This document shows positions 1,580-52,582 of a stretch of DNA of 64,000 bases, piece by piece. Origin of the DNA: Paludibacteraceae bacterium. Its GTDB lineage: Bacteria; Bacteroidota; Bacteroidia; Bacteroidales; Paludibacteraceae. Each line of letters begins with the position of its first letter. The first letter of the stretch is position 1. Made by a program: the position numbers and the translations under genes. The notes under the pieces are model-generated. The model was not told the origin of the DNA and did no database searches. It saw nothing but the letters and a program-made list of their open reading frames with translations. The DNA lies in NCBI GenBank assembly GCA_017451525.1, contig JAFTOD010000001.1:124001-188000 (forward strand), in the 5' to 3' direction.

Positions 1580-1880
1580 GCAAATTCATAGCTCAACATA
1601 GTTCAGTATTGTTCAGCGCTTTGCGTTCAGTATTGTAACAATGTTGAACCACATTGAACAACATCCAGCAATCGCATCTCATTCGAGGTGCGATTGCTCA
1701 TTATAGTTCGTTTGTTAAGATTGCCCCTCCCCATTGGTTTAGTGCTCGGCGCTATCCCGCCGAGTATTCTCTTCTCTATGTTCATTACCCCGAATATTAT
1801 TCGGGTATTCCCTGTCTTTACACTATACACTTTACACCTTTAACAAAAAATCACCCCAATAGTCATTTTTATTTGCTCAA
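1580..1880. repeat. Gap after pyrF with hairpins and short repeats
   Basis: This stretch has no convincing gene. It contains direct copies of gttcagtattgt (about 1602 and 1626). A hairpin at 1667-1698 has arms agcaatcgca/tgcgattgct and may end the pyrDF transcript, although no U tract follows. A second hairpin at 1746-1765 has arms ctcggcg/cgccgag, and a small one is at about 1790-1806 (cccgaat/attcggg). The motif tttgttaagattgcc at about 1709 recurs three times near 41 kb. Confidence 0.5.
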
Positions 1881-1903
1881 TTCAAAATAATTTACTACCT
1901 TTG
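1872..1903 (+). promoter_or_regulatory. Promoter of RNA A
   Basis: TTTG at 1872-1875 and TACCTTTG at 1896-1903 are separated by 20 bases, which is the Bacteroidota housekeeping promoter layout. No ORF starts soon after it, so it is best read as the promoter of the RNA that follows. Confidence 0.8.
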
Positions 1904-1908
1904 CACCC

Positions 1909-2295
1909 GAAAGTCCAACGCTGGGGTTTAGAGGGTGGGAAGTGTCTCCTCTCGGAAAGCCAAATTATTTGACCAAACACCCCAGTCGTGGCTTTCAAGA
2001 CATATTTAAAAGGCGTTTATTGACGCTCTGTTCTGACGTTATGAAACTTCGCAACTTTCAAAATCAGTTTCAGGACTTGGCAACGGTAGATGTCCTACGG
2101 GATATAGATTGTCCCTCTGTGCTTGTTTTGGTACATCTTTTGCGTGTATACGTATGCGCACACGCGTACCTTTAACTATGTTAGCACGGAGAATGTTTAT
2201 ATTCGGCGTGGGCTTCGCGTTGTTGTTCTAAACTGATTAGGCAATGCGAAGGCCTCATAACGTGGAACGACAGCAGTCGGAATCCACGTTTTTTG
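1909..2295 (+). ncRNA. Structured non-coding RNA A, about 390 nt, family not identified
   Basis: The region has a strong promoter upstream and an intrinsic terminator at its end, with many self-complementary segments and no credible ORF. Pairings seen: 1921-1927 with 1979-1985 and 1955-1962 with 1989-1996, which interleave as an H-type pseudoknot; a GGAC/GTCC hairpin near 2073-2096; a GGGA/TCCC hairpin near 2100-2116; and a long arm CTCTGTGC/GCACGGAG (about 2115-2192) enclosing GGTAC/GTACC and GCGTGT/ACACGC. It shares ordered sequence boxes with RNA B at 52.1-52.5 kb on the other strand: gacatatt then gcgttta, a GGGATA hairpin, a CTGTGC-type hairpin and atattcggcgtgggc. I saw no tmRNA, RNase P, SRP or 6S hallmarks. 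Bacteroidales-1 RNA is a candidate only because of the promoter/terminator-bounded layout. Confidence 0.75.
2259..2294 (+). terminator. Intrinsic terminator of RNA A
   Basis: The 8-bp stem aacgtgga/tccacgtt, with an inner cgac/gtcg stem, is followed directly by a run of T. The cgtgg arm could also pair with the conserved ggcgtgggc box upstream, so an alternative fold is possible. Confidence 0.8.
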
Positions 2296-2342: not shown

Positions 2343-3683
2343 ATGAAGAAAATACTATTTTTGCTACTCTTGGCAATATCGCAAGTGGCTATTTGTGCAC
2401 AGGAAGCACCCCAATGGGTGCAGAAAAAGCCTAAACCTGCCAACGACACGTATTTGTATGTAGTGGAACGCGGTGTCGGTGCCACCGAGATGGAAGCACG
2501 CAATCGCGCTATGGGATTAGTGTATCGCAACACAATAGAGCGTTTGGCATTGCCTATCAATTTGGCAAGTATCAACGAGGCTATTAATAATGGTAGCAAC
2601 TACGGCGATAATGCAGAAGTAATGAATATACCAGTAAACAAAGTGTGTGAGTACATTCAACAGGAAGCGACTCAATATGCAGTATATGTACTATGCCAAG
2701 TGGCACAATACGGCAATAGAGAGGCTCGATTCACCGCATTTACCCAATGTAATTCATTTGTTGAAAAACAAGATGTTGCACCCTTTTGGTGCAATGATAC
2801 TTGGCGAGCAACGAACTATCCACGCGAACAGTATGTACAGGGATTTGTAGTAGGTTCGAAACAAGCAGGCGAAAGTATAGAACAAACGTACCAACGCCTA
2901 AAAGAGCAAGCCCAAGCGGAAGCACTGCAAAATATCATCGCTACACAAAATGCGATAAAAGATATTCCCAACTTATCCGTAGAGAGTTGGCATAATCCCC
3001 AAACGAATGAGGTCTTTGCTTTTGCATGGGCAAAGAAAGAGGATTTGGTGCGCACGCTAAAGAAGCAGATTATTAGTCATATTACTCGTGCAGAAATGGC
3101 AATAGAAGAGGCAGAGGACTTGTTGGCTGAAGGCGAGAAAAGTGCAGCACGCAAGGCGATAGCCAAAGCCATTGAACATTTACAGCAAGTAGAGGAACAA
3201 CAAAAAGTAGTGCAAAGTGTGGACAGTAGCACAGAAATGGAAGATATTGCTTTTGCGGAGAGTAAAGCACTCAAACAACGAGCAACAGCATTGTATCAGC
3301 AGCTGAAGCATGGAGTGTCTGTGTATATCGGTGGAGAGATTACTATTTTCGATAAATTATACCCCACATTTATTCAGCAGATTAAGCAGGAGATTTCTCC
3401 CATGGGTTGCACTTTCACTACAAACGAGGTAGAGGCGGATTGGGTGATTCGTTTGCAGGGAACGACGCAAGAGTACAATACCATGCAAAAAAGTTCGTAC
3501 AGCGCATTTGTGGTTATGGCAGATGTAGCAATAGAGATAGCAAAGAAGGGGCAGATTATTTATTCGGGCAATGTGAGCCAAAAGGGTGTTCACACAATTA
3601 ATACAGAACAGGCAGCCAAAGAAGCATATACAGATGCAAGCAAGGAGATTGCAGCACAAATCAGCGAAATAATAAACAACTAA
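2343..3683 (+). CDS. Exported LPP20-domain-like protein
   Basis: The 446-residue protein has a clear signal peptide (MKKILFLLLLAISQVAICA), probably cut near residue 19. Residues about 22-100 resemble the LPP20 fold: PQWV at the start, then alternating strands, then a helix in which small residues repeat (ATEMEARNRAM). Residues about 255-320 are rich in E, A, K and Q and look like a coiled coil or long helix. The end carries a second small domain with ADWVIRL and a final helix. LPP20 proteins are periplasmic or outer-membrane-associated and often sit beside CsgG/LpoB-like proteins, as here: the next gene begins 27 bases downstream. The exact function is unknown. The start is supported by the signal peptide. 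Confidence 0.7.
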   Translation: MKKILFLLLLAISQVAICAQEAPQWVQKKPKPANDTYLYVVERGVGATEMEARNRAMGLVYRNTIERLALPINLASINEAINNGSNYGDNAEVMNIPVNKVCEYIQQEATQYAVYVLCQVAQYGNREARFTAFTQCNSFVEKQDVAPFWCNDTWRATNYPREQYVQGFVVGSKQAGESIEQTYQRLKEQAQAEALQNIIATQNAIKDIPNLSVESWHNPQTNEVFAFAWAKKEDLVRTLKKQIISHITRAEMAIEEAEDLLAEGEKSAARKAIAKAIEHLQQVEEQQKVVQSVDSSTEMEDIAFAESKALKQRATALYQQLKHGVSVYIGGEITIFDKLYPTFIQQIKQEISPMGCTFTTNEVEADWVIRLQGTTQEYNTMQKSSYSAFVVMADVAIEIAKKGQIIYSGNVSQKGVHTINTEQAAKEAYTDASKEIAAQISEIINN

Positions 3684-14584: not shown

Positions 14585-14657
14585 GTCTTCCTAGCTCAGT
14601 TGGTAGAGCAACTGACTCTTAATCAGTGGGTCCAGGGTTCGAGTCCCTGGGAGGACA
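14585..14657 (+). tRNA. tRNA-Lys (anticodon CTT)
   Basis: The cloverleaf can be drawn completely. The acceptor strands are gtcttcc and ggaggac (with one G-T pair), the D arm contains agctcagttggtagagc, the anticodon stem actga/tcagt encloses loop ctcttaa with anticodon CTT, and the T arm is caggg-ttcgagt-ccctg. The discriminator is A and CCA is not encoded. It is 73 nt long with its own promoter. Confidence 0.97.
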
Positions 14658-51082: not shown

Positions 51083-52051
51083 TTAAAATTCTTTTACAGC
51101 AACGATGTATGGACCATAATTAAATGCTCCGAACATGGAACCTGCTTTCCAATAGTGACAGTAAAAGTCTAAAAAAGCTTGTGGATTAATTCCTCCTTCA
51201 TACAGTGTACCAAATGTATAAAAATCATTGTATTTCTTCTTATTATTTACATTTCCTTTTATCCCCCATTTCCCTTTTTTATAGATTTTACTTTGATTCT
51301 CATCTTCAAAAGTCCACGAAGATTTAATCAAAGTAGAAGACTTTAGGTTAGTAGGAGCAAAAAACTCTACGCCTGGTAACAGCAAACCGCCTGTATAACC
51401 AACAATATGTCTGTGGAGATGATACATGCTCCATATTCCATTGTTCCATTTTTTATCTTTTTTCTGAATTTCAAATATATTCTTTGCGTAGTCTTCTCCC
51501 ATCTCTTGTCCTTCTCCGAGGAAATCGGCATATAACTCAATTTCAGCATTCCCAGGAATAAACCAACCTTCACCAAGAGCTTGCGCCCAGACTTGATCAG
51601 GGAAATAAATGGACATGTCTAATCCATTATCTGCGCAATAATCTGCAATTTTTTCTGCATTTTCTTTGCCTTTTTCCGTCAACATACTTGCTAATGCAGG
51701 AAGATGTTTTTTCATTATTTTTTTACGAATCTTTTTGTATGCTTTGTAATCGTATTCAGGCATTTCAAGATATGCCGCCTCAAAATCAGGGCGTGGTTTG
51801 CCAAACTCATTTATGCACCTTGACTTATATTCTTCCCATTGCTTTGAAGCAAAGATTCTTTGTATGCCTTTATTATTTTCGATATGCGCTGTAGCTGACA
51901 TCACCAATCCATGTTCTCCAGTAGCATCTACATAGATTACTATACTTGGTACGCCATCAATTTCCATATAATCGCCTAATTCAACTGCATTTACATTTGT
52001 GCAAAAGCATACTGCAATAACTGCAAGTAAAAATAATTTGATAGATTTCAT
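51083..52051 (-). CDS. Exported protein of unknown function (322 residues)
   Basis: The signal peptide is clear (MKSIKLFLLAVIAVCFCTNVNA). Then comes VELGDYMEIDGVPSIVIYVDATGEHGLVMS, a start often seen in Bacteroidota proteins of the DUF1566-like, product-display type, followed by helices rich in Lys and Glu, and a late Trp/Phe-rich part (GWFIPGNAEIELYADFLG; LLLPGVEFFAPT). I cannot assign a family. It is the first gene of a pair with the lipoprotein. RNA B is encoded just upstream on the same strand and ends at about 52130. Confidence 0.62.
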   Translation of the reverse strand: MKSIKLFLLAVIAVCFCTNVNAVELGDYMEIDGVPSIVIYVDATGEHGLVMSATAHIENNKGIQRIFASKQWEEYKSRCINEFGKPRPDFEAAYLEMPEYDYKAYKKIRKKIMKKHLPALASMLTEKGKENAEKIADYCADNGLDMSIYFPDQVWAQALGEGWFIPGNAEIELYADFLGEGQEMGEDYAKNIFEIQKKDKKWNNGIWSMYHLHRHIVGYTGGLLLPGVEFFAPTNLKSSTLIKSSWTFEDENQSKIYKKGKWGIKGNVNNKKKYNDFYTFGTLYEGGINPQAFLDFYCHYWKAGSMFGAFNYGPYIVAVKEF

Positions 52052-52130: not shown

Positions 52131-52543
52131 ATCTCATCCAATATGTGATGCGATATTGGAATGAGAGATAAATGGTTTCTCACATAGGCATAATCTATTT
52201 GGTTGGGTTATCGGCTCCAAACGACCCGTGAATATATAAAGAAAGCGTGGAACCTTACCTTTGCTTATTCTCTGTAACGAGGCTCTGGTAAACCCTTTCG
52301 CAAGAATAAGCAAGCAACGCCCACGCCGAATATGAAAAGCCACCAAACAGAGCAATCCACGCATGGATGCTCTGTGGCGGGATAGTCATATCCCAAAGGG
52401 CGTTTACTGCCTTCTTGTTTTGGGCGATTGTGAAATTTACCAGATTTCGTTACACCAAAACAAGCGCTGAGGACACCCCACTGCTTAAAATTGTGGGATC
52501 CCCGTAGTAAACGCTTTTTAATATGTCTGCAAACTTTTGGTTT
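52131..52543 (-). ncRNA. Structured non-coding RNA B, about 410 nt, related to RNA A
   Basis: Transcribed leftward from its own promoter. Ordered pairings: a 5' hairpin gcaaac/gtttgc; the arm agcgtttact/agtaaacgc enclosing ccca/tggg and cttgttttgg/ccaaaacaag stems; a gggata/tatccc hairpin; a cagagc-atcca/tggat-gctctg hairpin; then the box atattcggcgtgggc. A cgtgg/ccacg pair closes a long arm ttgcttattct/agaataagcaa. A last stem, tctcat-ccaatat/atattgg-atgaga (52131-52166), may end the RNA; an earlier stop near 52235 is possible. It shares sequence boxes and layout with RNA A. No ORF of credible length is present. Confidence 0.75.
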
Positions 52544-52550
52544 GCGGTTG

Positions 52551-52582
52551 CAAAATTACTACATTTTTTTGATTTGCGCAAG
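52551..52582 (-). promoter_or_regulatory. Promoter of RNA B
   Basis: Leftward CTTG at 52582-52579 and TAATTTTG at 52558-52551, spacer 20. Confidence 0.72.

Follow-up and report, generated by a model that had tools for sequence, protein, structure and literature searches.

Large ornate RNAs such as OLE, GOLLD, and ROOL constitute families of the Rfam database, leader RNAs are usually smaller than the RNA considered in this article, and EAR and put RNA act through processive antitermination. Structured RNAs of Bacteroidota that carry Rfam numbers include Bacteroidales-1, Bacteroides-1, Bacteroid-trp, Flavo-1, and 6S-flavo, according to the excerpt of PMC2864571 used here, whose table also contains epsC and gives no Rfam number for Bacteroides-2, which lies outside the present comparison. 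In this article, a further RNA is described from a 64,000-nucleotide stretch of DNA of a Paludibacteraceae bacterium (assembly GCA_017451525.1, contig JAFTOD010000001.1), hereafter the window, in which an initial annotation had noticed a pair of structured RNAs, related to each other and each with a promoter of its own, referred to as RNA A and RNA B.

The two RNAs are members of a structured RNA family, as the initial annotation had suggested from two dispersed members: 23 copies have been recognised by BLAST and a covariance model in the genome of origin (1,836,094 bases in 7 contigs, 84% complete, with the window at C7:124001-188000), and strong covariation is found across the family. Going beyond that annotation, the copies are placed like 5' leaders in front of same-strand genes, and three long-range helices that covary link the middle domain to the 3' domain. 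For RNA A and RNA B, two large paralogues (the family measuring about 300-400 nucleotides) with a pseudoknotted fold, we see about an even chance that they form cis-acting 5' leaders of the genes behind them and operate through regulated termination.

Two related RNAs and their anatomy

RNA A extends over positions 1908-2294 of the forward strand and RNA B over about 52546-52238 of the reverse strand. Both regions proposed initially are real, the 3' end of RNA B being placed now at a T-rich tract near 52238 rather than at 52131. Each RNA is preceded by promoter-like boxes with the 20-base spacer originally reported, and these fit the Bacteroides consensus TTTG / TAnnTTTG given in the consulted portion of PMC7366714. 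The dense self-pairing that had been described is reflected in minimum free energy z-scores of -4.9 for RNA A and -7.0 for RNA B relative to dinucleotide shuffles, with 0 of 100 shuffles being equally stable. Compared directly by BLAST, the two share only a pair of short stretches that fall short of significance (E 0.35 and E 7.9). Their kinship is established instead by a chain of intermediate copies linked by BLAST and by a covariance model, built from 18 copies of the same genome that include both RNAs, with which RNA A scores 110 bits and RNA B 100 bits. The boxes said to be shared in the same order are indeed present in that order, namely GACATATT, GCGTTTA, a hairpin of the GGGATAT..ATCCC type, a hairpin of the CTGTGC/CAGAGC type, ATATTCGGCGTGGGC, and a 3' arm.

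The features of RNA A are as follows.

1872..1903, forward strand: promoter, with TTTG at 1872-1875, a 20-base spacer, and TACCTTTG at 1896-1903
1908..2294, forward strand: RNA A, spanning the 5' stem through the T-run
1908..1997, forward strand: P0, closed by CGAAAG/CTTTC
1999..2012, forward strand: conserved linker GACATATTTAAAAG
2013..2094, forward strand: P1, GCGTTTATT at 2013-2021 with GGTAGATGTC at 2085-2094, enclosing P2 (2030-2036/2070-2076) and P3
2037..2043, forward strand: Y strand, 7 base pairs with Y' at 2256-2262
2043..2059, forward strand: P3 hairpin, whose loop 1 CTTCGCA (2047-2053) kisses loop 2
2062..2069, forward strand: X strand, 8 base pairs with X' at 2231-2238
2099..2115, forward strand: local hairpin GGGATAT..TGTCCC
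2116..2197, forward strand: variable hairpin domain, differing in length and sequence among copies
2205..2228, forward strand: GGCGTGG (5' strand of P6, 2205-2211) and 5' strand of P5 (2219-2228)
2231..2238, forward strand: X' strand
2239..2255, forward strand: P4 hairpin AGGC..GCCT, with loop 2 TGCGAAG at 2245-2251
2256..2262, forward strand: Y' strand
2260..2294, forward strand: intrinsic-terminator-like hairpin ACGTGGA..TCCACGT with T-run, assigned from sequence

The features of RNA B are as follows.

52551..52581, reverse strand: promoter, with TTG at 52581-52579, a 20-base spacer, and TAATTTTG at 52558-52551
52238..52546, reverse strand: RNA B, spanning the 5' stem through the T-rich tract
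52529..52545, reverse strand: P0 hairpin GCAAAC..GTTTGC
52400..52514, reverse strand: P1, GCGTTTACT at 52514-52506 with AGTAAACGC at 52408-52400, enclosing P2 (52463-52455/52423-52415) and P3
52469..52504, reverse strand: extra hairpin inside P1
52436..52454, reverse strand: Y (52454-52448) and loop 1 TCTGGTAAA (52444-52436)
52263..52311, reverse strand: P5, GCTTATTCT at 52311-52303 with AGAATAAGC at 52271-52263, enclosing X', P4 with loop 2, and Y'
52238..52250, reverse strand: CCACGC arm and T-rich tract closing the RNA, with a far partner GGCGTGG at 52327-52321

In general, the family starts at its 5' side with a promoter, P0, a linker of the form GACATA..AAA, P1, P2, and P3, which carries loop 1. 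A local hairpin with the motif GGRTAT and the variable hairpin domain come next, then GGCGTGGGC, P5, and P4, which carries loop 2, and a GC stem followed by a T-run closes the order. P0 is a 5' hairpin domain that varies among subgroups, and the consensus of P1 is GCGTTTAYT paired with ARTAAACGC or wobble forms of these. The extra hairpin inside P1 of RNA B recurs in four other copies of group B and is missing from B6 and B8. By eye, the 3' strand of P5 of RNA A is placed at 2265-2274, and the 5' arm of its local hairpin finds an alternative partner in TATATTC at 2198-2204. Inspection by eye likewise shows such a hairpin, and a distant partner for it, in all four groups of copies (A to D).

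Covariation and the long-range helices

Two sets of helices have been assessed. For the local ones, namely P1-P3 and the local hairpin, an alignment of 101 model matches was used, including one opposite-strand shadow match (L056); it was fitted to the model, which biases such an alignment toward the structure of that model. Within it, 93.4% of cells held standard pairs as against 83.5% in shuffled controls, 17 of the 24 pairs had changed on both sides as against 12.8, and the covariation score was 0.412 as against 0.228, a signal that was lost on sliding the partner. P2 covaries well, with 6 of its 7 pairs changed on both sides.

The long-range helices join the strands flanking P3 to those flanking P4 of the same RNA, as Y:Y', loop 1:loop 2 (L1:L2), and X:X'. 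In RNA A, these pairings are CGTTATG/CATAACG for Y, CTTCGCA/TGCGAAG for L1, and AATCAGTT/AACTGATT for X. RNA B forms them with different sequences, TGTAACG/CGTTACA for Y (Y' at 52279-52273) and TCTGGTAAA/TTTACCAGA for L1 (loop 2 at 52292-52284), and its X helix is short, of about 4 base pairs by eye. The test of these helices covered the 94 of 100 loci with a locatable 3' domain, required at least 6 contiguous Watson-Crick pairs, and was controlled by 1880 pairings with a foreign partner differing on both sides as well as by wrong-partner pairings. Y:Y' was found in 80/94 loci and in 7/1880 foreign pairings, the kissing loops L1:L2 in 92/94 and 101/1880, and X:X' in 60/94 and 31/1880, while the wrong-partner controls for Y, L1, and X gave 0-2/94. 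These values were obtained across 81 distinct Y, 26 distinct L1, and 88 distinct X sequences among the 94 loci. The covariation of P5 is moderate (48/94 loci as against 500/1880 foreign pairings). In an energy test, which used 159 of the 163 distinct cores representing 171 loci, the own pairing was better than all 40 foreign ones in 134/159 loci. Compensatory covariation beyond the controls, the absence of which had been named at the outset as grounds for refutation, marks the family as a structured RNA.

Should P2 and P5 hold at the same time as Y, L1, and X, two arrangements would be conceivable. Either the two domains would oppose one another as closed loops, giving a double-kissing (paranemic) fold, or the RNA would switch between a long rod and a local state. 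The rod is the minimum-energy structure computed for both RNA A and RNA B.

Copies, neighbouring genes, and the proposed leader reading

BLAST with RNA A and with RNA B gave two sets of dispersed copies in the genome of origin, which were sorted into group A (8), group B (8, including the remnant B7), group C (3), and group D (1). The middle-domain covariance model R1, comprising 115 positions and 24 pairs and derived from 18 copies, finds 21 places at E<1e-6, three of them newly recognised, which together with D1 and B7 make up the 23. A place at C2:70255-70361 (20.8 bits, E 0.66) may be a 24th copy; it lies about 140 nucleotides upstream of a same-strand match to DUF805b (RF02914) at C2:70082-70116. 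The remnant B7 (G000 C2:121499-121700, L052) has kept the promoter, the 5' hairpin, and the 3' end and has lost the middle domain; it precedes a gene of the type IX secretion system (T9SS) type, paralogues of which carry full RNA copies.

Within the same genus, 57 of 60 other genomes match at E<=0.01 with 1-30 matches each, counts that include opposite-strand shadows (one at this threshold in the genome of origin), and 5 of 40 further genomes searched alongside the genus set match as well. The search for homologues in Bacteroidales called for at the outset returned them: 51/393 genomes in a sample of the order, from 29/206 genera and 19 family codes, match at E<=1e-4, and the 2/395 genomes that match in a sample of the phylum (the genome of origin and G165) are both within Bacteroidales. 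A pattern scan of named genomes gave at least 113 stretches, and among the 80 listed, R1 matched at full length in 77 at E<=0.001, one match being clipped by a contig end and two stretches giving none. Among the matches listed, most titles refer to metagenome-assembled genomes, either of Paludibacteraceae or of uncultured Bacteroidales, many of them obtained from animals including ruminants, and a few name Bacteroidaceae, Porphyromonadaceae, Bacteroidia, or Candidatus Colicola.

The family is not common on phage or plasmid records: with RNA A lacking its 5' domain as the single query, BLAST gave no match in plasmid records and one in phage records, unannotated and unverified and confirmed by the model at 47 bits; of three pattern matches in viral contigs, none was confirmed. 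The phage record, titled Bacteriophage sp. (L257, MT839469.1, 4260 base pairs), carries the RNA at 2509-2620, upstream of an open reading frame (ORF) that by eye resembles a PAPS-reductase-type protein, and this record is possibly bacterial DNA.

The position of the copies relative to genes is strongly biased. In all 20 of the 23 own-genome copies that were examined, the next ORF lies on the same strand (for copies A8 and B2, whose mechanically called ORF starts within the RNA, an internal ATG is the more probable start), and a -7 box stands upstream of the RNA close to its first stem. Across the wider set, a same-strand gene of at least 100 amino acids starts within 200 nucleotides behind the RNA in 119/136 loci with sufficient sequence, whereas a divergent gene is equally near the promoter in 20/136. 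In raw counts, TAnn(T/C)TTG occurs within 260 nucleotides upstream of GACATA in 143/163 loci, and TAnnTTTG in the gap between T-run and ATG, which is shorter than that 260-nucleotide stretch, in 8/142 (the 163 cores after removal of 16 whose 3' end was not recognised and 5 that lacked an ORF). The distance from T-run to ATG has a median of 57 nucleotides. Judged from sequence, the RNA thus appears to lie, at most loci, between a promoter and a same-strand gene with no further promoter, as expected of a 5' leader.

These counts bear on two other explanations. The first regards the RNA as a dispersed mobile or selfish DNA element, similar to a miniature inverted-repeat transposable element (MITE), inserted upstream of genes with its structure as a by-product. 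The 1-30 matches per genome in the genus would suit such an element, as would the copies that accompany duplicated genes (B3/B4, B6/B7/B8), the shortened B7, and the presence of the RNA at 10 of 24 loci homologous to that of the A3 gene. We nevertheless regard it as very improbable, given the strong bias in strand and position, the compensatory change maintained in three long-range helices of diverged copies, and the promoter box near the first stem in 20/20 own copies examined. The second holds that the RNA is a family of stand-alone, terminated RNA genes acting in trans, as a ribonucleoprotein, a sponge, or a base-pairing RNA, with neighbours that merely lie in the path of readthrough or beside which the RNA has been kept. 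A promoter-like sequence of its own, the many paralogues, and the GC stem with T-run at the 3' end of 147/163 loci speak for it, together with a fold bigger than that of usual leaders and downstream neighbours that share no pathway; the authors of PMC11109978, in the portion consulted, argue that the smtA motif (>350 nucleotides) is too long for cis-regulation. This explanation remains a contender, though an unlikely one, because same-strand genes far outnumber divergent ones, promoter-like sites are rare in the gap, the downstream genes are biased toward exported proteins, and DUF805b at some loci and other elements stand between RNA and gene.

These gap elements carry no promoter of their own, so readthrough of the RNA would be needed for their transcription. 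DUF805b was found by Rfam between the RNA and the start codon at L084, L072, L074, L075, L076, L098, and L062, that is, at 7 of 31 loci scanned; all belong to a set of 14 loci chosen partly because the motif was already visible, and the other 17 loci gave none. All 7 matches in the 14-locus set lie downstream of the RNA, with none over the RNA itself, and a looser pattern of our own places the motif at 8/147 loci. The 6-mer GGAGCC is found in 18/131 gaps against 0.3 expected, and the element containing it (..CGGGnCGTTTGGAGCCnACTTCCCAC..) stands about 30 nucleotides before the ATG in several group-B leaders (e.g. L051, L056, L088). Cores of the GGGGAG type occur near the same gap position in some other families.

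The features and genes surrounding the two RNAs of the window are as follows.

2343..3683, forward strand: gene behind RNA A, 446 amino acids, signal-peptide-like start, 48 nucleotides behind RNA A
51083..52051, reverse strand: gene behind RNA B, 322 amino acids, signal-peptide-like start, about 186 nucleotides behind RNA B
about 52205-52235, reverse strand: GGAGCC-type element behind RNA B, 169 nucleotides before the ATG
about 52131-52170: hairpin between RNA B and its downstream gene
1742-1765, forward strand: hairpin GTGCTCGGCG..CCCGCCGAGT upstream of RNA A, a motif also present upstream of copy B8 (L053/L035) and in L205

The gene behind RNA B is rare, being matched in 2/61 genus genomes at E<=1e-15, its own included. 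For the gene behind RNA A, the two close homologues come from genome G025 and each is preceded by the RNA, one of them being aligned over 145 amino acids only; among its 22 matches, the 3 tested with the model (its own and these two) were all positive, and the other 19 are weaker. Comparison of the loci homologous to the RNA A and A3 genes therefore indicates that the RNA often stays with its gene, yet is not fixed to it. Two highly similar units of RNA and MBOAT-like gene in one genome (L040, L041) have the appearance of a duplication of leader and gene together.

By a home-made rule rather than a trained predictor, a signal-peptide-like start was scored for 94/142 downstream proteins, compared with 13/61 window genes and 113/396 other genes of the 8-kilobase loci. 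Of 122 distinct complete downstream proteins, 113 entered family scans, one of more than 1500 amino acids and eight others (L117, L162, L131, L167, L104, L180, L174, L176) being left out. Among the commonest families are leucine-rich repeats of the BspA type (8), sorting domains of type IX secretion (7 by Pfam, 8 by NCBIfam), CxxX-repeat radical-SAM targets (4), trypsin/HtrA-like proteases (3), and EcoRI-type methylase, glycosyltransferase, and GtrA (2 each). The model for the CxxX-repeat targets, TIGR04117, matches 4/113 proteins, and its assignment to L217, L074, and L139 was made from their sequences; at these three loci, the RNA precedes proteins resembling CxxX-repeat radical-SAM targets, which are possible precursors of ribosomally synthesized and post-translationally modified peptides (RiPPs).

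The order of promoter, structured RNA, terminator-like stem, and start codon leads us to favour a leader under regulated termination. Transcription would start at the promoter beside the first stem, and the transcript would fold with P1-P3 as its middle domain and P4-P6 as its 3' domain, the two being joined by the three long-range helices. The GC stem with its T-run would end the unit, where most transcripts would stop, and the fold would set, in cis, the frequency with which RNA polymerase continues into the gene. Three candidate switches, each a choice between mutually exclusive pairings, may be considered: the local GGGATAT hairpin competing with its long-range pairing, P1 competing with P7, in which its GCGT strand pairs with the terminator arm instead, and a near partner of the terminator arm competing with a far one. 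Because the P1/P7 and the near/far terminator-arm pairings stand weakly above foreign pairings, switching is put forward as a proposal. The reading would also imply a signal that acts in trans on many copies.

A related mechanism is processive antitermination in the manner of EAR/epsC or put RNA, in which polymerase would be modified to pass both the adjacent and later terminators. It would suit a promoter-proximal pseudoknotted RNA that precedes surface, glycosyltransferase, and exported genes and has a terminator-like stem directly behind it, but several units of the genome of origin apparently contain, by eye, one or two short genes, and we consider it improbable. For the leader under regulated termination, a bolder extension is doubtful to a similar degree: the family would be a new class of very large two-state leaders serving as a portable control module for exported and accessory Bacteroidales genes, in which a single shared signal would act in trans on as many as 30 leaders of a genome. 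In addition, pairing between molecules through the copy-specific, self-matching Y, L1, and X segments would let each leader recognise its like and build paralogue-specific RNA complexes.

The RNA is carried by 57 of 60 sampled genomes of its genus and 51 of 393 of the order, mostly precedes variable and often exported genes, and yet is unmatched in the Rfam scans made here. If the leader model is true, it would point to an order-wide regulatory signal for surface and accessory genes of gut bacteria. The triple long-range pairing also makes the RNA a natural subject for work on the co-transcriptional folding of large RNAs.

Comparison with known RNAs

Rfam 15, which covers tmRNA, RNase P, SRP, 6S, introns, riboswitches, and Bacteroidota motifs and takes the gathering score as the measure of membership, returned one match for the whole window at that score, a tRNA at 14585-14657. 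The absence of a match to tmRNA, RNase P, SRP, or 6S noted initially therefore extends to every Rfam family at the gathering score over either RNA, and the scan suggested at that time gave no strong match to a known family. With the limit relaxed to E 5, the RNA A region stays free of overlapping matches, and the only overlap with RNA B is a sub-threshold one with SNORA40 at its 5' end (18 of 51 bits, E 2.5); over the RNA in 14 loci at the gathering score and in 17 loci at E up to 0.5, none was found. No description of the RNA was encountered in the titles and abstract openings of part of the matching papers. Supplementary tables of motifs, which lie outside this comparison, may list a fragment of it; one example is the set of 3161 candidates reported in PMC8040213 according to its consulted portion.

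A large structured leader RNA is a known kind of element, and the family itself has no Rfam match at the gathering score. It differs in this respect from OLE, GOLLD, and ROOL, the Soda Lake RNA being outside the comparison. Bacteroidales-1, Bacteroides-1, Bacteroid-trp, Flavo-1, and 6S-flavo, unlike the present RNA, have no match in the window. DUF805b, a cis-regulatory element in Rfam, shares some leaders with the large RNA; at 35 nucleotides as against about 300-400, and with a model of its own, it is a separate neighbour, and of its 7 matches in the genome of origin (4 over the cut-off), one follows a clear RNA copy, one a weak match, and 5 neither.

The large ornate RNAs, including OLE, GOLLD, ROOL, and smtA/Soda Lake (PMC12286853, PMC11109978), resemble the present RNA in being long, elaborate, and covarying, whereas the present RNA has many paralogues per genome, most of them placed before a gene. 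Attenuation leaders and riboswitches resemble it in being promoter-proximal structured RNAs with a terminator-like 3' end, possible alternative pairings, and a same-strand gene, but differ from it in that the genes downstream of the present RNA have export, rather than a pathway, in common.
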